Below, in pieces: positions 8,880-33,243 of a stretch of DNA of 34,741 bases (positions are counted from its first letter, which is position 1; each line of letters begins with the position of its first letter). The notes under the pieces are model-generated. The model was given only the letters and a program-made list of their open reading frames with translations, was not told the origin of the DNA and did no database searches. This DNA is from a virus. The stretch is from positions 1 to 34,741 of IMG/VR virus record IMGVR_UViG_3300044641_004492. The stretch is one strand, 5' to 3'. Both the position numbers and the translations under genes were made by a program.

Positions 8880-10196
8880 ATGGAAGAAATCTTAAAATTA
8901 GTAGCAGAGTACATTACAGAAAAAGACTCTAAAAAAGAATGGGTAGCAGGAAGAGACCTAGTACAATATGCAGGTAACTATTTCGATGAAAAGGAATATG
9001 TTGCTGCAGTTAAAACCTTGTTAGGAGGTTGGTTAGTTTTAAATCAAGAAGGTATTCGTTTCGAATCTAGATTTCCAAAAAGATTAGGGAAAAAATTAGG
9101 TATTTTAACGAATAGTGGTTCTAGTGCTAATTTGTTGATGTTAGCAGCATTAACATCGAAGCGAGGCCTGAATTTACCTAAGGGTACTAAAGTATTAACA
9201 CCTATTGCTGGTTTCCCGACTACAATTAATCCAATATTGCAATTAGGATTCACTCCTGTATTTGTCGATATTGAATTAGAATCATTGAATTTGGATTTAG
9301 ATCAAGTAGAACAGAAATTAAAAGAAGATCCAGAAATCAAAGTAATTACCTTTGCTCACGTATTGGGTAATCCACCAAATATGGATCGTTTAATGGAATT
9401 AGTTGACAAATACAATTTAGTTTTCTTAGAAGATTGTTGCGATGCATTAGGTTCATCATATAAAGGACAAATGCTAGGATCATATGGGAAAATGGCAAGT
9501 TGTTCATTTTATCCAGCACATCACATCACAATGGGTGAAGGTGGCTTTGTAGCTTGTAATGATATGGAAACGGAACGAATCCTAAGAAGCTTTAGAGATT
9601 GGGGTCGTGGTTGTTATTGTGTAGGTAAACAAAATCAACTTGAATGTGGTATGTGTAATCAACGTTTTAATAACTGGTTACCGGCTTTGCCAGATGATGT
9701 ATTTGATCATAAGTATGTTTATGAAGAAATTGGTTATAATCTTAAACCAATTGAGATGCAAGCAGCTATGGCATTTATACAAATGCAAAAATTAGAAGAA
9801 ATTGGACAAATACGAAGAAAAAATCATAAATTGATTACTTCATTGTTTGAAAAATATAGTGAATACTTTGTTTTACCAAAAGCAACAGAAGGTGCGGATC
9901 CAGATTGGTTTGCAGTAGCATTAACGGTAAAAGATGGAGCTGGATTTAGTAGAGCAGATTTTTGTCAATTCTTAGAATCAAATAAAATTCAAACTCGACC
10001 TTACTTTGCAGGTAATATCATGTTACAGCCAGCATATGAAGGTATCATGGATGCAGAACAAGTTATTAAAGATTTTCCAGTAGCAAGAAAAGTAACAACG
10101 GATACATTCTTCTTAGGTTGCAGTCCTGTAATTACCGAAGAACAAATTGAATATATCGGAACAATCGTTGACAAGTTTTTTAGTGAGTTGAAATGA
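8880..10196 (+). CDS. E1-type NDP-4-keto-6-deoxyhexose 3-dehydrase (RfbH/DdhC/AscC-like)
   Basis: A 438-aa DegT/DnrJ/EryC1-fold protein, the length of RfbH/E1. In aminotransferases of this fold the PLP lysine lies in SFxxxK; here the segment is SFYPAHHITMGEGG (209-222), with His214 at the lysine position, which marks 3-dehydrases rather than transaminases. Cys187, Cys245, Cys247 and Cys256 reproduce the Fe-S cysteine pattern of Yersinia E1 (57 residues between the first two, then C-x-C), with one extra residue before the fourth. The family removes the C3 hydroxyl of a 4-keto-6-deoxy sugar on the way to 3,6-dideoxyhexoses and needs an E3-type reductase, not found here. It overlaps fcl by 4 nt. 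Confidence 0.85.
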   Translation: MEEILKLVAEYITEKDSKKEWVAGRDLVQYAGNYFDEKEYVAAVKTLLGGWLVLNQEGIRFESRFPKRLGKKLGILTNSGSSANLLMLAALTSKRGLNLPKGTKVLTPIAGFPTTINPILQLGFTPVFVDIELESLNLDLDQVEQKLKEDPEIKVITFAHVLGNPPNMDRLMELVDKYNLVFLEDCCDALGSSYKGQMLGSYGKMASCSFYPAHHITMGEGGFVACNDMETERILRSFRDWGRGCYCVGKQNQLECGMCNQRFNNWLPALPDDVFDHKYVYEEIGYNLKPIEMQAAMAFIQMQKLEEIGQIRRKNHKLITSLFEKYSEYFVLPKATEGADPDWFAVALTVKDGAGFSRADFCQFLESNKIQTRPYFAGNIMLQPAYEGIMDAEQVIKDFPVARKVTTDTFFLGCSPVITEEQIEYIGTIVDKFFSELK

Positions 10197-11092
10197 AAAG
10201 ATTAGTAACGGGTGGTACAGGATTAGTTGGATCAGCAATTATAGCTGATGTTAAGGTTGGACGAAATTATGATCTAACTAATCCATTAATTTGTGATTCA
10301 ATGTTTAATGAACACAAACCAACTCATGTAATCCATTGTGCAGCAAAAGTCGGCGGACTTGGCGGCAACATGAATTATAAGGGTGAATATTTCCACGATA
10401 ATATCATGATAAATACTAATGTTATCGAATCTGCAAGAAAAGCAGGCGTTACTAATTTAGTTTCATTTTTATCTACGTGTGTATTTCCCGATGATATTGA
10501 ATATCCATTAACAGAGAAAAAAATACATTTAGGCGAACCTCATTTTTCAAATTATCCATATGCATATGCAAAAAGAATGGCAGACATTCAAATTAGAGCA
10601 TATCGAGAACAATATGGGGTGAAATATACATCAGTAATTCCATGTAACATATATGGCCCAAATGATAACTTTTCGTTAGAGCATGGACATGTAATTCCTA
10701 TGTTAATGCATAAATTATACTTGGCTCAACAACGCAATGAAGATTTTGTTGTATGGGGTTCTGGCAAACCTTTGCGAGAATTTATCTTTTCAAAAGATGT
10801 TGCACAATTAGCAGAATGGGCTTTGGATAATTATGATGAATCAGAACCAATCATATTTAGTACTTCAAATGAGATTAGTATTATGGATTTGGTAGATTTA
10901 TTAGTAAAGGAATTTGAATTTAAAGGTCGAGTTATATTCGACGATTCCAAACCTGATGGACAATTTAGAAAACCATCAGACAATAGCAAATTAAAATCAT
11001 ATCTTCCGGATTTTGAATTTACTTCAATTGAAGAAGGTATTAGAGAAACAGTATATTGGTTCAAGGAAAATTATGATAGAGCAAGAAAATAA
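10193..11092 (+). CDS. fcl: GDP-L-fucose synthase (GDP-4-keto-6-deoxymannose 3,5-epimerase/4-reductase)
   Basis: A 299-aa extended SDR. The NADP-binding GGTGLVGSAI (7-16), the CAAKVGG block (49-55), LSTCVFP (93-99, Ser94 and Cys96), YPYAYAK (121-127, Tyr123 and Lys127) and HGHVIP (164-169, His166) correspond to the catalytic Ser, Cys, Tyr, Lys and His of E. coli GDP-fucose synthase. It converts the product of the next gene to GDP-L-fucose using NADPH. Slightly shorter than the bacterial enzyme (321 aa). It overlaps both neighbours, so the dehydrase-fcl-gmd block is one translation unit. Confidence 0.93.
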   Translation: MKRLVTGGTGLVGSAIIADVKVGRNYDLTNPLICDSMFNEHKPTHVIHCAAKVGGLGGNMNYKGEYFHDNIMINTNVIESARKAGVTNLVSFLSTCVFPDDIEYPLTEKKIHLGEPHFSNYPYAYAKRMADIQIRAYREQYGVKYTSVIPCNIYGPNDNFSLEHGHVIPMLMHKLYLAQQRNEDFVVWGSGKPLREFIFSKDVAQLAEWALDNYDESEPIIFSTSNEISIMDLVDLLVKEFEFKGRVIFDDSKPDGQFRKPSDNSKLKSYLPDFEFTSIEEGIRETVYWFKENYDRARK

Positions 11093-12056
11093 AGTAGCAC
11101 TCATTACGGGTATTAATGGACAAGATGGGTCATATCTATCTGAATTTTTATTAGATAAAGGTTATGAGGTACATGGGATTCTAAAGAGAAATTCAGTATC
11201 AGAAAACCAAACAGCACGATTAGATAAAGTATATTCTAGATTGAAATTACATTATGCTGATATGTCAGACTTATCATCATTGATACGAGTTATTCAAGAA
11301 ATACAACCCGATGAAATTTATAATTTAGCAGCACAATCACACGTTAGAATTAGTTTCGATCAACCTTTATATACAGCAAATGTGACAGGTTTAGGAGCAT
11401 TGAATCTATTAGAGGCAGTTAAATTAGCAAAGCCAGATTGTAAAATTTATCAAGCATCTTCATCGGAAATGTTTGGTAATACAATTGATGAAGATGGCTA
11501 TCAAAGAGAAACAACTTCAATGAATCCAGTATCGCCATATGGTTGTGCTAAGGTATTTGCATACAACATAAGTAGAAACTACCGCAATTCATATGATATG
11601 TTTGTATCTAATGGCATCTTATTCAATCATGAATCGCCTAGACGCGGAACAAATTTTGTAACAAATAAAGTAGTAAAAGAAGCCGTAAAAATTAAATTAG
11701 GATTGTCTAATGAACTTCGTTTAGGTAATTTGAGTGCTACTCGAGATTGGGGACATGCTAAAGATTATGTACGTGCAATGTGGATGATTTTGCAATTAGA
11801 TAAACCAGATGATTTTGTTTGTTCTACAGGCATATCGCATTCAGTACAAAATCTTTGTGAATATGTATTTTCTAAATTAGATTTAAATTGGAGAGAATAT
11901 GTAAAGGCTGATTCTAAGTTCTTTAGACCAGAAGAGTTACACGATCTTAAAGGAGATTGCACTAAATTAAAAACAGCAACTGGTTGGGAACCTGATTATA
12001 CATTTGAAACTATGCTCGACGAAATGATTGCATATTGGATGGAGTTCTATAAATGA
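11073..12056 (+). CDS. gmd: GDP-mannose 4,6-dehydratase
   Basis: A 327-aa enzyme with TGINGQDGSYLSEFLL (12-27) binding NADP, SSSEMFG (129-135; Ser130 and Glu132 as the Thr/Glu pair), YGCAK (Tyr156, Lys160, the numbering of E. coli GMD), NHESPRRG and the NLSATRDWGHAKDYV block that recognises GDP-mannose. It makes GDP-4-keto-6-deoxymannose, the precursor of GDP-fucose, colitose and perosamine. The ATG at 11073 has AAGGA at good spacing; an upstream ATG at 11013 would add 20 foreign residues and a longer overlap with fcl. No GDP-mannose-producing enzyme is nearby, so the host must supply the substrate. Confidence 0.96.
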   Translation: MIEQENKVALITGINGQDGSYLSEFLLDKGYEVHGILKRNSVSENQTARLDKVYSRLKLHYADMSDLSSLIRVIQEIQPDEIYNLAAQSHVRISFDQPLYTANVTGLGALNLLEAVKLAKPDCKIYQASSSEMFGNTIDEDGYQRETTSMNPVSPYGCAKVFAYNISRNYRNSYDMFVSNGILFNHESPRRGTNFVTNKVVKEAVKIKLGLSNELRLGNLSATRDWGHAKDYVRAMWMILQLDKPDDFVCSTGISHSVQNLCEYVFSKLDLNWREYVKADSKFFRPEELHDLKGDCTKLKTATGWEPDYTFETMLDEMIAYWMEFYK

Positions 12057-18578: not shown

Positions 18579-19397
18579 ATGAGTTATATAACAAAGACCA
18601 ATTTATCTATAGGCCCTCAATTTGGTTCACAAATGGGACAGTATGCAGGATTATATGCAGTATCTCGAAAATTAAATTCTGAAATACGTTTGTTTGAAGA
18701 ATACGTTCATCAATTCCGCGGAGTGAAATTATTTGATGCATTTGATTTAAATCACCAACTACATTTCTATAATACACAAGATCCAGTTAACGGCGTATAT
18801 ACAGTTAAAGATATTGTATTAGATTCTGAAGTATTTACATTAGATCCGAAACAAAATTGGGATATACAAGGTTGGTTTCATCTATATCATTATTGGCATG
18901 AATATAGATCTGATTTATTAGATATTTTTAAGTTTAAATCAGATATTTTCAAACAAGCAAAATCTAATTTAGATATTATTAAAGATAATGAACAATATCC
19001 AATTGTGGCATTACATGTTCGAAGAGGAGATTATTTACAAGTATCTTCTTTAAATTTAACATTGGATTATTATAATGAAGCAATATCAATTTTCTTAGAA
19101 AAATTTCCATATTTTAAAGTTTTAGTATTCTCTGATGATATAGCTTGGTGTAAAGAATCAATTGTTGGCGAAAATGTTTTCTATAGCGAAGGTAATTCTA
19201 ACTATGTAGATATGTGTATGATGTCATTATGTGATCATAATATTATAGCAAATAGTACATTTTCATGGTGGGGTGCATACCTAAATCAAAACCCAGAAAA
19301 AATTGTTGTATGCCCTAAGGATTATATAGGACCATCAGATCCAGCAAATCAGTTTATGAATAAAAATTATTATCCAACGGAGTGGATTGCATTATGA
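18579..19397 (+). CDS. Alpha-1,2-fucosyltransferase (GT11)
   Basis: A 272-aa GT11 enzyme. GPQFGSQMGQYAGLYAVSRK (12-31) is the family's first block, VALHVRRGDYL (143-153) is the HxRRxDY GDP-fucose-binding motif, VFSDDIAWC (183-191) and NSTFSWWGAYL (225-235) follow in the usual order. It transfers L-fucose from GDP-fucose in alpha-1,2 linkage, typically to galactose. Length is normal (about 270-300 aa). All signature residues are intact, making this the most secure of the fucosyltransferases here. The last 4 nt overlap the 2-oxoglutarate oxygenase gene. Confidence 0.93.
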   Translation: MSYITKTNLSIGPQFGSQMGQYAGLYAVSRKLNSEIRLFEEYVHQFRGVKLFDAFDLNHQLHFYNTQDPVNGVYTVKDIVLDSEVFTLDPKQNWDIQGWFHLYHYWHEYRSDLLDIFKFKSDIFKQAKSNLDIIKDNEQYPIVALHVRRGDYLQVSSLNLTLDYYNEAISIFLEKFPYFKVLVFSDDIAWCKESIVGENVFYSEGNSNYVDMCMMSLCDHNIIANSTFSWWGAYLNQNPEKIVVCPKDYIGPSDPANQFMNKNYYPTEWIAL

Positions 19398-20176
19398 CAA
19401 ATGAAGATAAAAATTACATAGTACAAAAATTAGCTTCTGCACAGTTAGAACAAATACCATTTACTCACACTGTGATTGATAATTTTTTACCAATTGAATT
19501 AGCAAATCAACTCTTTGAAGAATTTCCAGATTTTGAAAATCCAATTTGGTTTAATTATAAAAATAAAATTGAAGATAAAAAACTATTAAGTGATTGGAGA
19601 CAATATCCAAAACAAACATATCAAATGTTTTCATTTTTAAATTCCAATTTAATTTTAGAGACATTATCTAATAAATTGAATACCAACTTATTAGCTGATC
19701 ATGGTTTACATGGTGGCGGCTGGCATATTCACGCTAATGGCGGAAAATTGAATCCGCATTTAGATTATTCAATACATCCGATGTTAAAAATGCAACGAAA
19801 GTTAAATTTAATTATTTATCTTTGCAAAGATTGGGATGAACGATATGGCGGACATTTTGGATTGTATAATCAAGATTTAGAAACTAATAGATCTGGAGAA
19901 TTAGCAAAAGAAATTGCAGTAGGATTTAATAAAGCTGTTTTATTTGATACTACACAAAATTCGTGGCACGGTTTGAGTCGAGAAGTTAATTGTCCAGCAA
20001 ATCAATACAGAAAAAGTTTAGCAATTTATTATTTAACACCACCGCCGGCTAATGTCGATACTAGAGCTAGAGCATTATTTTCTCCTACGGAGGGACAACG
20101 TGATGATAATACTATAACAGAATTAATAGAAAAAAGAGCAGATTTTAATAAATCAAAAGAAGTTTATATAGGATAG
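19394..20176 (+). CDS. 2-oxoglutarate/Fe(II)-dependent oxygenase
   Basis: The 260-aa protein has the double-stranded beta-helix metal site: His122 and Asp124 in NPHLDYS, His192 in SWHGL and the 2-oxoglutarate-binding Arg206 in QYRKSL. The N-terminal FTHTVIDNFLPIELANQLFE is typical of the prolyl-4-hydroxylase-like branch found in polysaccharide clusters and cyanophages. It would hydroxylate a sugar, lipid or protein residue; the substrate is unknown. The start at 19394 gives an ATGA overlap with the GT11 gene; the ATG at 19382 would add four residues. Confidence 0.88.
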   Translation: MTNEDKNYIVQKLASAQLEQIPFTHTVIDNFLPIELANQLFEEFPDFENPIWFNYKNKIEDKKLLSDWRQYPKQTYQMFSFLNSNLILETLSNKLNTNLLADHGLHGGGWHIHANGGKLNPHLDYSIHPMLKMQRKLNLIIYLCKDWDERYGGHFGLYNQDLETNRSGELAKEIAVGFNKAVLFDTTQNSWHGLSREVNCPANQYRKSLAIYYLTPPPANVDTRARALFSPTEGQRDDNTITELIEKRADFNKSKEVYIG

Positions 20177-20180
20177 TGAT

Positions 20181-21134
20181 ATGACAAAAGTAGTATATGT
20201 AACGGGTTGTTTGGGATTCATAGGATCATATGTAACGCGTACGTGTTTAAAAAGAGGATGGTATGTAAAAGGAGTTGATAAAATTACTTATGCATCAAAT
20301 GATCATTTATTAAATGAGTTTTATGAATATGAAAATTTTTCATTTGTTCATTGTGATATTAGCGAATTGAAATTTTTATATGATTGTGACTATATCATCA
20401 ATACAGCAGCAGAAACTCATGTAGGTAACAGTATTGCTAACAGCGATGAATTCGTTCATTCGAATATCAATGGTGTTCATAATTTATTAGAATTGATAAA
20501 TAATCATAGAGGTGAACATACGAAGAAACCAGTTTTATTACATTTTAGTACTGATGAAGTATATGGTGATATTGAAGATGGAGCACATATTGAGACAGAT
20601 TTATTGAAACCTAGCAATCCATATTCAGCAACAAAAGCAGCTGCAGATATGTTAGTAATGGCGTGGGGCCGTACATATAAGTTACCATATGTTATCGTAC
20701 GTCCAACTAATAACTATGGAATAGGTCAATATGTTGAAAAATTAATTCCAAAGGCATGTAAACATTTAAAACTAGGAAAACAGATTCCATTACATAATAA
20801 CGGATCACCAATTAGAACATGGTTACACGCACAGGATACTGCTAATGCAATTATGACTATAATTGATTCTGGCATTGAAAATGAAATCTTTAATATATGC
20901 GGTGGTTTTGAGCAAAGTAACTTGGAAACTATAACAAAAGTTATTAAATTATATTATAATGATATAGTAGATATTAATACATATGTTGACTTATCATATA
21001 ATCGACAAGGACAAGATGTACGCTATGCATTAGATGATTCGAAATTAAGATCATTAGGATGGAAGCCAGAACATGATTTTGATACTGAATTAGAAAAAAT
21101 TGTAAATTATTACAGACATAAGTTTATATGGTAA
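20181..21134 (+). CDS. NDP-hexose 4,6-dehydratase, RmlB-like
   Basis: A 317-aa extended SDR with VTGCLGFIGSYV (7-18), AAETHVGNSIANSDEFVHSN (76-95), FSTDEVYGD (122-130) holding the Thr124-Asp125-Glu126 dehydratase triad, YSATK (148-152) and RPTNNYG. The C-terminal YNRQGQDVRYALDDSKLRSL is the RmlB-type substrate block. It should convert dTDP-, CDP- or UDP-glucose to the 4-keto-6-deoxy sugar, the substrate class of the E1-type 3-dehydrase 10 kb upstream. Nucleotide preference cannot be judged. It is slightly shorter than RmlB (about 350 aa). An AGGA lies near the start, and it overlaps the TPP enzyme gene by 7 nt. Confidence 0.9.
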   Translation: MTKVVYVTGCLGFIGSYVTRTCLKRGWYVKGVDKITYASNDHLLNEFYEYENFSFVHCDISELKFLYDCDYIINTAAETHVGNSIANSDEFVHSNINGVHNLLELINNHRGEHTKKPVLLHFSTDEVYGDIEDGAHIETDLLKPSNPYSATKAAADMLVMAWGRTYKLPYVIVRPTNNYGIGQYVEKLIPKACKHLKLGKQIPLHNNGSPIRTWLHAQDTANAIMTIIDSGIENEIFNICGGFEQSNLETITKVIKLYYNDIVDINTYVDLSYNRQGQDVRYALDDSKLRSLGWKPEHDFDTELEKIVNYYRHKFIW

Positions 21135-22879
21135 AAGTTAGTGATGTTATAGCAGATTTTTTAGTAAAAAATAATATCGAAGTTATATTTGGAATTATAG
21201 GATCTGCTAATTCTCATATTTTTGATTCAATAAATAAACATTCTGATATTAAATTAATATCAGTTCATCATGAGCAAGCTGCCGTAATGGCAATGGGCGC
21301 ATATTATCGAGCTACAGGGAAGCTGTCAGCTGCATTAGTTACTGCAGGCGGAGGATCATCGAATGCATTTACTGGAATTCTTTCGAATTGGGCAGATTCA
21401 ATCCCAGGAATCATTATTTCAGGACAAGAACAATCATATTATATCGATGAATATTCAGATATGAGAATGTATGGTATTCAAGGATATGATTCAGTTGAAA
21501 CTTTCAAGAATTGTACTAAGTTATCTGTACGCATTACGAAAGATAATGTAGTTGAGACGTTATCATTAGCTAATTTCATTACTAATAGTAAAAGACCAGG
21601 TCCTGTATATTTGGAGGTACCATTTGATGTTCAAGGACAGTTAATTGAATTTGAACAATTTGTAACGTATGAGCAGCCTATAGATGAACCAATTGAAGAA
21701 GCTAAGTATATTATTAAAAGACTTAATGAAGCAAAACATCCTTTAATATTAGGAGGACACGGAATAAAATTATCAGGAGCTGAAGACTATTTTAGAGAAT
21801 TTGTTAACACACATCAAATACCAACCGTATTAAGTTGGTCTGCAGTTGACTTATTAGAAACTGATAATCCTATTAATTTCGGAAGACCTGGGGTACAAGG
21901 ACAACGATCTGCAAATTTTATAGTACAAAATAGTGATTTAATTATTGTATTAGGTAGTAGATTGTCATTATTACAAACAGGTTATTCTAGAAAAGACTTT
22001 GCCCCAAATGCTGAAATAATTCATATTGATATAGATCCAACAGAAACAAAAAAATTCAACGGTAAAAATTATAATGTAGATGTAAAACCATTATTAAAAT
22101 TACTTAATGAATTTAGCATATCACTTGAGCTTGATATCGAAATATGGATAAACTATTGTAATAAAATGAAAGAAGAATATCCATTAGTGATGCCCGAGCA
22201 TTTAGCTGACCCCACTAATTCATATACATTTATGGATTGGTTTTCAAACAAAGTACCTGATAACTATACAATTGTTACAGATATGGGAACAGCATTATTG
22301 AGTGGATTTTATGGATTTAATATCAAACCAAATCAAAAGATGTTTACTTCTTTAGGCTTAGGGGAGATGGGATATGGTATTGCAGCAGCAGTAGGCGCTG
22401 GATTTGGAACGAAACCGGTTATGTGTTTAAACTGTGATGGCGGAATGATGATGAATCTACAAGAACTACAAACAATAAAAACGCACAACTTACCAGTTAA
22501 AATAGTTATCTTTAATAACGATGGCTATTTAATGATTAAACATACGCAAAACATATTATTCAATGGAAATCGTACATGTGTTGATAAGAAAACAGGTGTA
22601 GAACTTCCAGATTATAAAAAAGTAGCAGCTGCATTTGAATATGAATATTATACAATAGATAACGTTGATGAATTTATAACTTCAAATAATCAAGCAATAT
22701 TAGAAGTATTTATGGACCCAGATCAAGAATTTATACCTAAAGTAAGAGGTATTAAAAATGATGATAATACAATTCAAGCAGGTTTATTAGAAGAAATGTC
22801 ACCATTGATATCATATGAACAAATAAAACAAGCAATGATATCTGGAATTAATGAACGGAGTAAAACAATAATAAGATGA
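21128..22879 (+). CDS. Thiamine-diphosphate-dependent enzyme, acetolactate synthase-like
   Basis: A 583-aa enzyme with the three-domain acetolactate synthase layout. Glu49 (SVHHEQAAVMAMG) is the cofactor-activating glutamate; the ThDP/Mg motif is NCDGG at 435-439 followed 25 residues later by Asn463-Asn464, with Cys436 where Gly is usual. RPGPVYLEVPFDVQ is the usual middle-domain entry. The family condenses a 2-keto acid, after decarboxylation, with an aldehyde or ketone. In a sugar cluster the precedent is YerE, which attaches a two-carbon unit to a 4-ketosugar. It is unlikely to serve branched-chain amino acid synthesis here since no partner enzymes are present. It overlaps the next gene by 4 nt. 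Confidence 0.9.
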   Translation: MVKVSDVIADFLVKNNIEVIFGIIGSANSHIFDSINKHSDIKLISVHHEQAAVMAMGAYYRATGKLSAALVTAGGGSSNAFTGILSNWADSIPGIIISGQEQSYYIDEYSDMRMYGIQGYDSVETFKNCTKLSVRITKDNVVETLSLANFITNSKRPGPVYLEVPFDVQGQLIEFEQFVTYEQPIDEPIEEAKYIIKRLNEAKHPLILGGHGIKLSGAEDYFREFVNTHQIPTVLSWSAVDLLETDNPINFGRPGVQGQRSANFIVQNSDLIIVLGSRLSLLQTGYSRKDFAPNAEIIHIDIDPTETKKFNGKNYNVDVKPLLKLLNEFSISLELDIEIWINYCNKMKEEYPLVMPEHLADPTNSYTFMDWFSNKVPDNYTIVTDMGTALLSGFYGFNIKPNQKMFTSLGLGEMGYGIAAAVGAGFGTKPVMCLNCDGGMMMNLQELQTIKTHNLPVKIVIFNNDGYLMIKHTQNILFNGNRTCVDKKTGVELPDYKKVAAAFEYEYYTIDNVDEFITSNNQAILEVFMDPDQEFIPKVRGIKNDDNTIQAGLLEEMSPLISYEQIKQAMISGINERSKTIIR

Positions 22880-23739
22880 CTAAAATTAAAGTAGCAATCA
22901 TAGGTACGGGTAATATCGGTACCGATTTATTATTAAAATCAATTAAAACTGATTTTATCAATATCGTTGCATTTGTCGGTAGACGATTAGATTCACCTAC
23001 TATGAAAATTGCACAAGAGAAAGGCATAACAACTTCGGATCTAGGTATTCAATACTTTATTGATAATCCTAACTGCTGTGATGTAGTATATGATTGTACA
23101 AGTGCGGCAGATGCTAAAGAACATGCAAAAATATTCAAAGAACAAGGTATCAAAGTAATAGATTTAACGCCGGCTAAAGTAGGAGATATGTGTGTCCCAG
23201 ATGTTAATGCTGAAATGATATTAACTGATGATAACGTTAATATGATTACATGCGGAGGTCAAGCATCAATGCCAATGTTACATTTGTTATCTAAACGATG
23301 CATCGGATTAGAATATGTAGAGATTGTATCGCAAATTGCATCTAAAAGTGCAGGAATGGCTACTAGAATTAATGTTGATAATTATATTGCAACTACAAGA
23401 AAAGCAATCACAAAGTTTACTGGATGTAAAAATACAAAAGTAATACTTAATCTTAATCCAGCTGAACCATGTGTGGATATGCAAACAACTATTTTTATTA
23501 AAACTAAAGATATTAACTTTATTGGATTGATAGAAGAGATTGCTGAAAAGATAGAAGAACTAAAAACTTATATACCGCATTATGAATTAGTATTGCCGCC
23601 GACAATGAACGAAGCTGGAGTATTAGTATTAAGTATTAGAGTTAAAGGAGCTGGCGATTATCTGCCAGAGTATGCAGGAAATTTAGATATTATTAACTGC
23701 GCTGCTATTAAAGTTACGCAAAAATTAACAGAAGTATGA
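22876..23739 (+). CDS. Acylating acetaldehyde dehydrogenase, MhpF-like
   Basis: A 287-aa protein: KVAIIGTGNIGTDLL (5-19) binds NAD, SAADAKEHAK follows, and NMITCGGQASMPM (122-134) contains catalytic Cys126. INVDNYIATTRKA and PPTMNEAG are further family blocks. The enzyme interconverts acetaldehyde and acetyl-CoA with NAD and normally forms a channelling complex with the aldolase encoded next. It is about 25 residues shorter than MhpF (316 aa), chiefly in the middle. Neighbours on both sides overlap by 4 nt. In a sugar island the likely direction is acetyl-CoA to acetaldehyde, which is inference. Confidence 0.9.
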   Translation: MTKIKVAIIGTGNIGTDLLLKSIKTDFINIVAFVGRRLDSPTMKIAQEKGITTSDLGIQYFIDNPNCCDVVYDCTSAADAKEHAKIFKEQGIKVIDLTPAKVGDMCVPDVNAEMILTDDNVNMITCGGQASMPMLHLLSKRCIGLEYVEIVSQIASKSAGMATRINVDNYIATTRKAITKFTGCKNTKVILNLNPAEPCVDMQTTIFIKTKDINFIGLIEEIAEKIEELKTYIPHYELVLPPTMNEAGVLVLSIRVKGAGDYLPEYAGNLDIINCAAIKVTQKLTEV

Positions 23740-24737
23740 AAAAAATTATTATAACAGATTCTAGTTTACGCGACGGAAATCATAGTGTTAAACATACTAT
23801 TAGTTTAGATAGTATTGAAAAGTATTGTCAGTTTGCAGATAAGGTTGGAATTCCAATTGTAGAAGTTGGCCATGGCAATGGATTAGCAGCTTCTTCTTTA
23901 TTAATTGGAAAATCTCCAAATACAGATAAAGAGATGCTTATTACTGCTAAGAAATATTTAAAGAATTCGAAGTTAGGCATTCATACTATTCCGGGATTAT
24001 CAACTGTCGATGACGCCATGGCAGCTGCCGACTATGGTGTCGATGTATTTCGAGTAGCTACTCATTGTACTGAAGCTACATTAGCTAAATCACATATTGA
24101 ATATCTTGCAAAAGCAGGAAAAGAAGTATATGGCGTATTGATGATGAGTGCATTAATTACTGCAGATGAATTAGTAGAACAAGCAAAAATCATGGAAAGT
24201 TATGGCGCACAAGCTATCATCATTATGGATTCGACTGGTACATATCTTCCTAGCGATGTACAAGAACGTATCTCAAAACTAAAAGCTCACACCAACATTA
24301 AAGTAGGCTTTCATGCTCACAATAACCTAGGATGTGCAGTAGCTAATTCATTAGTAGCTGTTCAGTCAGGAGCTGATATGATCGATGTATGCATAAGAGG
24401 TTTTGGTGCTGGTGCAGGTAATGCTCCTTTAGAGTTAATACTTCCAGTATTTGAGAAGAGTGGATTTTTAACTGGTATTGACTTTGAAGAGACAATCAAA
24501 GAAGCAGATCGCGTTATGGATTATCTTGTGCCAAATGTTCCAATTACAACGCCAATTAATGTTTTAACTGGTTTAACAAAATTATTTTCAGGATTTGAGA
24601 AACCAATTATAAAGGCATCTAAACTATACGGTATAGAGTATTCATCTCTTATATTTGAATTAGGTAATAGAAAATTAGTAGCCGGCCAGGAAGATTTAAT
24701 TTTAGAAGTTGCACAAAAATTAAAAGAAAATAAATGA
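23736..24737 (+). CDS. 4-hydroxy-2-oxovalerate aldolase-like (HMGL family, MhpE-like)
   Basis: A 333-aa TIM-barrel aldolase, close to MhpE (337 aa). ITDSSLRDGNHSVKH (6-20) gives catalytic Arg12, metal ligand Asp13 and His20; VEVGHGNGLAASS (42-54) is specific to this branch; His193 and His195 in GFHAHNN complete the metal site; FGAGAGNAPLE closes it. The family splits 4-hydroxy-2-oxoacids into pyruvate and an aldehyde, reversibly, and hands acetaldehyde to the dehydrogenase through a tunnel. The ordered pair with the dehydrogenase, joined to a TPP enzyme in place of catechol-pathway genes, is the unusual point. Confidence 0.91.
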   Translation: MKKIIITDSSLRDGNHSVKHTISLDSIEKYCQFADKVGIPIVEVGHGNGLAASSLLIGKSPNTDKEMLITAKKYLKNSKLGIHTIPGLSTVDDAMAAADYGVDVFRVATHCTEATLAKSHIEYLAKAGKEVYGVLMMSALITADELVEQAKIMESYGAQAIIIMDSTGTYLPSDVQERISKLKAHTNIKVGFHAHNNLGCAVANSLVAVQSGADMIDVCIRGFGAGAGNAPLELILPVFEKSGFLTGIDFEETIKEADRVMDYLVPNVPITTPINVLTGLTKLFSGFEKPIIKASKLYGIEYSSLIFELGNRKLVAGQEDLILEVAQKLKENK

Positions 24738-25540
24738 AAATTTTAATCACCGGCGGAAATGGTTATATTGCTAAGAGTTTATATTCATACTTATATACTG
24801 ATTATGATATAACTATCATCACGCGAAATGATTTTGATTTAACAGATAGAAGTGCAACCGATTTATACTTTAAAGATAAATATTTTGATTTAGTAATACA
24901 TACAGCAATTAAAGGTGGCAATAGATTACATGTAGATAAATCTAATATTACACACGAAAACTTAAGTATGTTTTATAATTTGTGGAATAATAAACGTAAA
25001 TTTAATCAACTTATAAGTTTTGGCTCCGGTGCCGAAGATGGTATGCCAGTTAGCCCATATGGATTAAGTAAACATGTAATATCAAAACTAATTGATAATA
25101 TAGAATATTTTTATAATATAAGAATATTTGGCGTTTTTGATGAGAATGAATTAGAATCTAGATTCATTAAATCTAATATACAACGTTATATTAATAAACA
25201 ACCAATAATCATTCATCAAGATAAATTTATGGATTTTTTCTATATGAAAGATTTAGTATCAATTATTAAATTTTATTTGAAACGAGATCGAGTTTGGGAG
25301 TCCCCACCTCATAGTTTAGATTGTTGTTATCAAACAAAATATATGCTATCAGACATTGCAACAATGATCAATGAATTAGATTCACATAAAGTTAAAATTA
25401 TTATAGAATCATCTGATATTGCAAATCCATATACTGGTACATTTAATACACCGGTTATTGAAAATACTAATATTCCAGTTATTGATTATATTGGCATCGA
25501 AACTGGTATACAACAAGTTTATGAAAAATTAAGGAAATAA
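24734..25540 (+). CDS. NAD-dependent epimerase/reductase (extended SDR)
   Basis: A 268-aa SDR. MKILITGGNGYIAKSLYSYL has the GxxGxxA loop, DLVIHTAIKGGN the family's second strand, and SPYGLSKHV the YxxxK pair (about 108-116). The C-terminal half is short and lacks the RmlB substrate block. DFFYMKDLV matches the D-F-x-x-V-x-D-V block of sugar epimerases. The likely role is ketoreduction or epimerisation of the branched or deoxy sugar. Coupled to the aldolase gene by ATGA and to the next glycosyltransferase by TAATG. Confidence 0.8.
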   Translation: MKILITGGNGYIAKSLYSYLYTDYDITIITRNDFDLTDRSATDLYFKDKYFDLVIHTAIKGGNRLHVDKSNITHENLSMFYNLWNNKRKFNQLISFGSGAEDGMPVSPYGLSKHVISKLIDNIEYFYNIRIFGVFDENELESRFIKSNIQRYINKQPIIIHQDKFMDFFYMKDLVSIIKFYLKRDRVWESPPHSLDCCYQTKYMLSDIATMINELDSHKVKIIIESSDIANPYTGTFNTPVIENTNIPVIDYIGIETGIQQVYEKLRK

Positions 25541-32604: not shown

Positions 32605-33243
32605 ATGGCATACTTAAATGCAAACATACCTACAATTACGTGTTTCATACGTAATGAATTCATGTTTAATCATGAACAAGGTAACGGCGAATTTACACTA
32701 GCAGATGTGCATAGTGTAGCTTCAATACAAAAACGAACTCCATTGTTTGAGGCATTTCTAGAAAATGGCGTCAATTGGACACGAAGACCAATTCATGCAT
32801 TTTGTTGGAGAAAAGATGCAGAACAGTTACCATTGACCGAACATGTATATTGGGATTGTTTTTCTTCATATATCGATGTACAAGTAAGAGAACGATTATC
32901 AGGCCTTCGAGCTGATTTAATTTCTATTACAGGTGTAAAGAGACAAGGTACATATATGTTCACATTGGATTGGTCTCATGAAAATAGAAATGTATTAGAT
33001 ACTAATTTTTCTGAAACACCTGAACATAAATGCGGCCATGTATTTAAAATGGATAATGGTAATTATTTTATTTATCCGAATAATAGAATTATATGGATGG
33101 ATACTGCTTGGACATATAATAGAATAGATAAAAATCCAGGTTATAAGATTGATATGACAGTGTATAGCGTTGAAGGTAAAGCTGGCTTCGAAACTGATTA
33201 TTCATACATAACTGAATTTAAACAAGATAAAACAAAAAAGTAA
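32605..33243 (+). CDS. Conserved T4-like phage hypothetical, 212 aa
   Basis: Starts MAYLNANIPTITCFIRNEFM. This opening, followed by HEQGNGEF, VASI, RRPIHAFCW (about 61-69), YWDCFS, LSGL and EHKCGHVFKMDNGNYFIYPN near the end, follows the order of a conserved protein I recall from cyanophage and Pelagibacter-phage T4-like genomes, with no established function. Length is close to those. It is preceded by AATAAATAG (32592-32600) rather than a full promoter-like element. It supports the T4-superfamily assignment of the window. Confidence 0.75.
   Translation: MAYLNANIPTITCFIRNEFMFNHEQGNGEFTLADVHSVASIQKRTPLFEAFLENGVNWTRRPIHAFCWRKDAEQLPLTEHVYWDCFSSYIDVQVRERLSGLRADLISITGVKRQGTYMFTLDWSHENRNVLDTNFSETPEHKCGHVFKMDNGNYFIYPNNRIIWMDTAWTYNRIDKNPGYKIDMTVYSVEGKAGFETDYSYITEFKQDKTKK

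Follow-up and report, generated by a model that had tools for sequence, protein, structure and literature searches.

The IMG/VR virus record IMGVR_UViG_3300044641_004492, a contig of 34,741 bp analysed here over its whole length (the window), carries within an island of sugar genes three adjoining genes for a thiamine diphosphate (ThDP)-dependent enzyme, an acylating acetaldehyde dehydrogenase and a 4-hydroxy-2-oxovalerate aldolase, and the question is what such a trio makes in a virus. Genes for a clamp, a clamp loader, an endolysin and a tail lysozyme were found in the window, indicating that it derives from a phage, probably a T4-like one; a large terminase is encoded on several related long contigs. 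We propose, with a probability of about 0.75, that the trio forms the centre of a phage pathway to an erwiniose-type long-branched deoxy sugar, making the donor and attaching the branch. The features concerned are the following.

20181–21134, + strand: RmlB-like nucleoside diphosphate (NDP)-glucose 4,6-dehydratase (TIGR01181, 296.2 bits against a cut-off of 365.1)
21128–22879, + strand: YerE-like ThDP-dependent carboligase, 583 amino acids (JanthE 8rph, 481 bits)
22876–23739, + strand: acylating acetaldehyde dehydrogenase of the DmpF/BphJ family, 287 amino acids (TIGR03215, PF09290)
23736–24737, + strand: 4-hydroxy-2-oxovalerate aldolase of the DmpG/BphI family, 333 amino acids (TIGR03217, PF00682, PF07836)
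24734–25540, + strand: extended short-chain dehydrogenase/reductase (SDR) with a keto-sugar-reductase fold (motif residues, AlphaFold model)
8880–10196, + strand: RfbH/E1-type 3-dehydrase (NF011936, PDB 3bcx)
5470–26763, + strand: surrounding sugar island (domain and family matches, hydropathy scan)

In the proposed pathway, the dehydrogenase would convert acetyl-CoA to acetaldehyde, and the aldolase would join acetaldehyde and pyruvate to form 4-hydroxy-2-oxopentanoate, probably as the (4R) enantiomer. The acceptor, an NDP-4-keto-6-deoxy (probably 3,6-dideoxy) hexose, would come from the neighbouring 4,6-dehydratase and the RfbH-type 3-dehydrase of the island. The ThDP enzyme would then decarboxylate 4-hydroxy-2-oxopentanoate and add the four-carbon acyl anion to the C4 ketone of the NDP-sugar, and the SDR would reduce the branch ketone to give a 4-C-(1,3-dihydroxybutyl) sugar. 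One of the glycosyltransferases in the island would transfer this sugar, most likely to a cytoplasmic target (virion protein or phage DNA). What the sequence data establish directly is which genes are present, how they are ordered, that their key residues are kept and that they recur together; the individual reactions, the nucleotide, the stereochemistry and the target are inferred. ErwE uses 4-hydroxy-2-oxopentanoate and not pyruvate as donor, and its product is erwiniose (PMC12247030), a ten-carbon sugar (PMC8657720), as expected from a hexose plus four carbons. Working in the synthetic direction, the dehydrogenase and the aldolase would thus supply exactly the donor of ErwE. An earlier note on this DNA had proposed the same donor and a four-carbon branch on a 4-ketosugar, and these putative steps agree with the published chemistry; for its alternative, a 3-hydroxybutyryl-type acyl group, no support was found.

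The genes themselves are as that note had described them. The three open reading frames (ORFs) lie at the positions given above with 4 nt shared at both junctions, and the catalytic residues are intact: Glu49 and Asp437 (the latter within NCDGG) in the ThDP enzyme, Cys126 (in MITCGGQ) in the dehydrogenase, and Arg12, Asp13, His193 and His195, together with His16, in the aldolase. The trio therefore stands, but its extent had been drawn too narrowly: the functional unit is larger and includes the 4,6-dehydratase and the reductase-like SDR, and the RfbH-type 3-dehydrase probably belongs to it as well.

Among solved structures the ThDP enzyme is nearest to JanthE (PDB 8rph, 481 bits over residues 2–582), and the second-best PDB match, an entry annotated as acetolactate synthase large subunit, reached 252 bits. 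No acetolactate-synthase cut-off of NCBIfam was attained (best score 303.8 against 738; TIGR00118, 300.2 against 538), and on these scores together with the PDB comparison we rejected an identity as acetolactate synthase, which the earlier note had named as a finding that would overturn its proposal. By sequence the enzyme falls among the YerE-like ThDP lyases, being nearer to JanthE than to acetohydroxyacid synthase or other DC-family enzymes, and its gene cluster, with an adjoining 4,6-dehydratase and an RfbH-type dehydrase in the island, is of the acceptor-making kind expected of this group. Asn464 is also present, and the cofactor motif is CDG in place of GDG, as in JanthE, a YerE-like enzyme with this unusual motif (PMC12188165, PMC12247030). 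As our scans partly selected for CDG, its conservation among the matches is no independent evidence. The active-site Lys567 of JanthE is kept as Lys538 (the numbering of JanthE and that of 8rph differ by one, an offset taken from the alignment), and this lysine is invariant across the viral and bacterial relatives, whereas Tyr268 and Pro293 of JanthE are replaced by Gln257 and Leu282. JanthE accepts 4-hydroxy-2-oxovalerate and also pyruvate (PMC12188165).

The two partner enzymes exceeded the curated cut-offs of their families (dehydrogenase, TIGR03215, 317.5 against 282.25; aldolase, TIGR03217, 333.7 against 286). Pfam found the dimerisation domain PF09290 in the dehydrogenase, which matches PDB 7z3s (250 bits), and both PF00682 and the DmpG communication domain PF07836 in the aldolase. 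Using BphI numbering, which we anchored on its Arg16/Asp17/His20, matching Arg15/Asp16/His19 of HsaF, we found that the window aldolase has His83 at the Leu87 position and Phe284 at the Tyr290 position, and thus lies outside the catabolic (4S)-specific type, which carries Leu and Tyr there; these two residues are also found in the solved aldolase structures 4jn6 and 8ih7. Histidine occupies the Leu87 position in 103/103 viral and 71/71 bacterial aldolases aligned, and phenylalanine the Tyr290 position in 98/103 viral (4 Met, 1 gap) and 71/71 bacterial ones, the viral set including duplicate contigs. In BphI, Y290F abolishes stereocontrol, and L87N/Y290F or L87W/Y290F switches the product from (4S) to (4R) (PMC3962088, PMC4012138). 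The sugar-cluster aldolases thus have His/Phe naturally at both positions of the engineered switch, from which (4R)-4-hydroxy-2-oxopentanoate is the predicted product. Carbon C7 of erwiniose, which corresponds to donor C4, is presumably D, that is (R), by its systematic name and our own Cahn–Ingold–Prelog derivation.

Scanning of viral contigs with the aldolase gave 39 loci, most of which have the same five-gene order (RmlB-TPP-ALDH-ALDO-SDR, that is, dehydratase, ThDP enzyme, dehydrogenase, aldolase and SDR). Scanning with an alignment of the ThDP enzyme gave 77 viral loci, part of the contigs being retrieved in both scans so that the loci are not all independent. In 59 of the 77 the trio is unbroken and its genes share a strand, an arrangement that is not due to chance; 46 of these 59 loci have the dehydratase gene directly before the ThDP gene, and 56 have an SDR-like match downstream. 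On a viral contig of 326 kb (L177) the order RfbH-TPP-ALDH-ALDO-SDR-RmlB is contiguous, with RfbH directly upstream of the ThDP gene. In eight other viral loci (L152, L156, L159, L160, L161, L163, L166 and L168) the SDR gene comes straight after that of the ThDP enzyme, with neither dehydrogenase nor aldolase nearby, and the aldolase was not found anywhere on these contigs. Comparison of ThDP enzymes from loci that have the pair and loci that lack it gave a list of conserved differences, none of which could be linked to donor choice at the sequence level.

The cassette is also widespread in bacteria. Genome contigs scanned with the ThDP alignment alone gave 78 bacterial loci; both dehydrogenase and aldolase are present in 70 of them, mostly beside deoxyhexose genes, and 57 of these 70 also have an RfbH-like gene. 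One Pseudoduganella locus (L074) has, in this order, a cytidylyltransferase, a cytidine diphosphate (CDP)-glucose 4,6-dehydratase, RfbH, the ThDP enzyme, an unassigned ORF, the dehydrogenase and the aldolase; apart from the ThDP enzyme and that ORF, all score well over their curated cut-offs. In a Mucilaginibacter locus (L043) the cytidylyltransferase and the CDP-glucose dehydratase likewise exceed their cut-offs, and an RfbH-like gene is present. Glucose-1-phosphate cytidylyltransferase, CDP-glucose 4,6-dehydratase and RfbH together produce CDP-4-keto-3,6-dideoxyglucose, which YerE and ErwE use as acceptor. The earlier note had suggested a search for the trio beside sugar dehydratases and had held that catabolic surroundings in relatives would speak against it; in both viruses and bacteria the trio sits in sugar-biosynthesis clusters and not in catabolic ones. 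In three Pseudomonas loci (L070, L073, L083) two ThDP enzymes stand in tandem, the first about 30% identical to that of the window, hinting at two different branching steps.

As a control, TIGR03217 was run on about 400 genomes of two phyla irrespective of the ThDP enzyme, and about 14–19 kb was fetched around 20 matches. No close ThDP relative was present within about 9 kb of the 15 Leu87/Tyr290 aldolases and the one Ile/Tyr aldolase; one Tyr290-type locus had only a 23% identical ThDP paralogue. Two loci of the His-Ile-Phe type have RfbF, RfbG and RfbH, one of them with a 58%-identical ThDP enzyme, and two further loci (His-Ile-Cys or His-Val-Phe) have neither the ThDP enzyme nor RfbF/G/H and instead apparently adjoin a gene read by eye as similar to pyridoxal phosphate (PLP)-dependent aminotransferases. 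The His/Phe signature therefore marks a biosynthetic-looking group and not sugar clusters alone. Two genomes with a sugar-cluster aldolase also hold higher-scoring Leu/Tyr copies. An aldolase–dehydrogenase pair with His at BphI position 87, lying without the ThDP enzyme and apparently beside such an aminotransferase-like gene (L265 and L266), may be a third context, perhaps a hydroxy-amino-acid route.

For the acceptor, TIGR01181 (RmlB) is the nearest model to the window 4,6-dehydratase, yet its cut-off is missed, and we therefore label the enzyme only RmlB-like; the CDP-glucose 4,6-dehydratase model gave only 70 bits. Glucose-1-phosphate cytidylyltransferase was sought in ten viral contigs and none scored over the cut-off, so the NDP-glucose is taken to be supplied by the host. 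The DegT-family gene at 8880–10196 scored 461 against a cut-off of 423 with NF011936 (RfbH), placing it among the RfbH/E1 3-dehydrases. It aligns with E1 (PDB 3bcx, 348 bits), and the catalytic histidine that replaces the PLP lysine, His214, is kept in SFYPAHHITMGEGG; Cys187, Cys245, Cys247 and Cys259 match the positions of the E1 [2Fe-2S] cluster ligands. The PHROG 'ferredoxin' match at 32605–33243 was considered as its reductase and rejected, since Pfam finds no ferredoxin domain there. His-type DegT genes recur close to the cassette in viral and bacterial loci, and several contigs whose flank was too short have one elsewhere. The SDR shows weak sequence similarity to known families and conserves the glycine motif TGxxGxI, Ser98, Tyr109 and Lys113. 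Its AlphaFold model (predicted local distance difference test, pLDDT, 92.6) best matches the folds of GDP-fucose synthase and C4 keto-sugar reductases (TMq about 0.75–0.78), and such a modelled fold fits a ketone-reducing step.

Several points weigh against the pathway as drawn. The phage dehydratase is RmlB-like and not of the CDP type, which makes the nucleotide partner of the RfbH-like enzyme uncertain; RfbH lies 11 kb from the cassette in the window and could serve another sugar, and its partner reductase was not identified. The reductase role of the SDR is assigned by modelled fold only, His is not among the residues tried at BphI position 87, and the viral clade with ThDP enzyme and SDR and no pair indicates that the ThDP enzyme can couple to another donor. 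The explanation that survives best beside ours is a close erwiniose analogue, a branched sugar formed without 3-deoxygenation and/or from another aldehyde such as propanal. Sugars of the same class with a 3-hydroxyl exist (PMC9912281), the RmlB-like dehydratase adjoins the trio while RfbH is distant in the window, and aldehyde size is influenced by which residue stands at BphI position 87 (PMC3962088); the recurrence of His-type 3-dehydrases near viral and bacterial cassettes speaks the other way, and we regard such an analogue as possible, though clearly the less probable product. A YerE-like ThDP enzyme that takes pyruvate and builds a two-carbon, yersiniose-like branch, with the aldolase and dehydrogenase working to some other end, is improbable. 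YerE itself prefers pyruvate (PMC12247030), JanthE accepts it too, and one viral clade does without the pair; however, the operon is tight, strong co-occurrence of ThDP enzyme and pair is seen in two viral groups and across many bacterial phyla, and the pair would supply exactly the donor preferred by ErwE. Finally, the genes could be read as a catabolic or redox module, with the pair cleaving 4-hydroxy-2-oxoacids into acetyl-CoA and pyruvate as a supply for the infected cell, or with the ThDP enzyme acting as the acetolactate synthase of amino-acid synthesis. This reading has the family names and a listing of similar viral genes under amino-acid synthesis (PMC5454428) in its favour but is very hard to reconcile with the sugar-cluster context, the acetolactate-synthase scores far under every cut-off with JanthE nearest, an aldolase active-site signature unlike that of catabolic aldolases, and a window in which aromatic-catabolism genes were not recognised.

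The erwiniose-type pathway may have entered viruses more than once. In a quick tree of the ThDP enzymes most viral sequences form one large group, and those of L176–L180 fall apart from it, among Burkholderiales and Pseudomonas, suggesting at least two acquisitions. L176–L180 represent a second, independent viral version of the cassette, on contigs up to 326 kb with RfbH adjoining or near. A further viral group (L171–L173, L175 and L188) has the arrangement ALDH(+), ThDP(+), ALDO(-) and probably represents a eukaryotic giant virus; L171 also encodes a RING-finger protein and an FkbM methyltransferase. The Micromonas viruses MpV1 and MpV-PL1 are reported to have an acetolactate synthase and an acetaldehyde dehydrogenase that were classed as amino-acid synthesis (PMC5454428), and the L171-type clade may explain these prasinovirus genes. 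We suggest tentatively, at somewhat less than even odds, that several unrelated lineages (T4-like phages, the group including the 326-kb contig and probably algal giant viruses) independently carry a complete long-branched-sugar factory with a naturally (4R)-selective aldolase and decorate their own virions or DNA with its product. Searching a phage isolate collection by tblastn with the ThDP enzyme and with the aldolase revealed no trio-bearing phage; the matches were distant paralogues, and many were apparently bacterial contigs filed as phage records.

The island around the cassette (5470–26763) contains glycosyltransferases, Gmd- and Fcl-like genes, GT11 and GT10-type fucosyltransferase domains, a 2-oxoglutarate (2OG) oxygenase and DUF5672 proteins. 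GDP-fucose-type genes (Fcl-like and Gmd-like) and a GT11 fucosyltransferase-like gene lie at 10193–12056 and 18579–19397, and the island appears to supply at least one further deoxy sugar. The gene for the 2OG-Fe(II) oxygenase (19382–20176) closely precedes that of the dehydratase. Neither a flippase nor a polymerase was recognised in the island, and a hydropathy scan of the island enzymes in their own frames detected no membrane protein; many glycosyltransferases without flippase or polymerase are weak evidence for a cytoplasmic target (virion protein or DNA) over O-antigen assembly.

Long-branched-sugar chemistry is known from a few bacterial surface sugars and has apparently not been described in phages. 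The earlier note had called this an undescribed phage route; the phage setting is new, but the chemistry and the sugar class are already known in bacteria, where ErwE exists and the cassette is widespread. In one virome paper a 4-hydroxy-2-oxovalerate aldolase appears among the auxiliary genes, without the cassette context (PMC13303688). Our results point to a candidate source of the hydroxy-ketoacid donor for long-branched sugars, predict a rare ten-carbon sugar in phage glycans and suggest that viral genes commonly annotated as acetolactate synthase and acetaldehyde dehydrogenase should be read anew. The aldolases would be naturally occurring equivalents of a stereochemistry switch that was engineered in a well-studied enzyme, directly testable in vitro.

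Among known systems, YerE of yersiniose A synthesis in Yersinia likewise performs a ThDP-dependent branching, on CDP-3,6-dideoxy-4-ketoglucose, and YerF reduces the ketone afterwards; in contrast to the phage pathway, the branch has two carbons from pyruvate, and aldolase and dehydrogenase are not needed. DmpG-DmpF and BphI-BphJ of catechol degradation belong to the same two families as the phage pair, including the communication and dimerisation domains, and like them the phage enzymes probably form a channelling complex. They differ in that we propose synthesis as the working direction of the phage pair, which has His and Phe in place of Leu87 and Tyr290, and in that the phage-type pair is found in sugar clusters with a ThDP enzyme. 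Long branches are also built on sugars of mycobacteria by MMAR_2332 (caryophyllose), with a donor preference like that of ErwE, and MygE (gastriose), which takes C3 to C8 ketoacids (PMC12247030); these serve bacterial lipooligosaccharides, and their ketone acceptance in vitro is yet to be shown. The closest counterpart is ErwE of Pectobacterium atrosepticum, compared here by its published description (PMC12247030): it too carries out ThDP-dependent carboligation of a 4-hydroxy-2-oxoacid onto a 4-keto-deoxyhexose to give a ten-carbon branched sugar, whereas its setting is a bacterial O-antigen or exopolysaccharide with a CDP-linked acceptor and the phage set includes an RmlB-like dehydratase as well as an SDR of its own.

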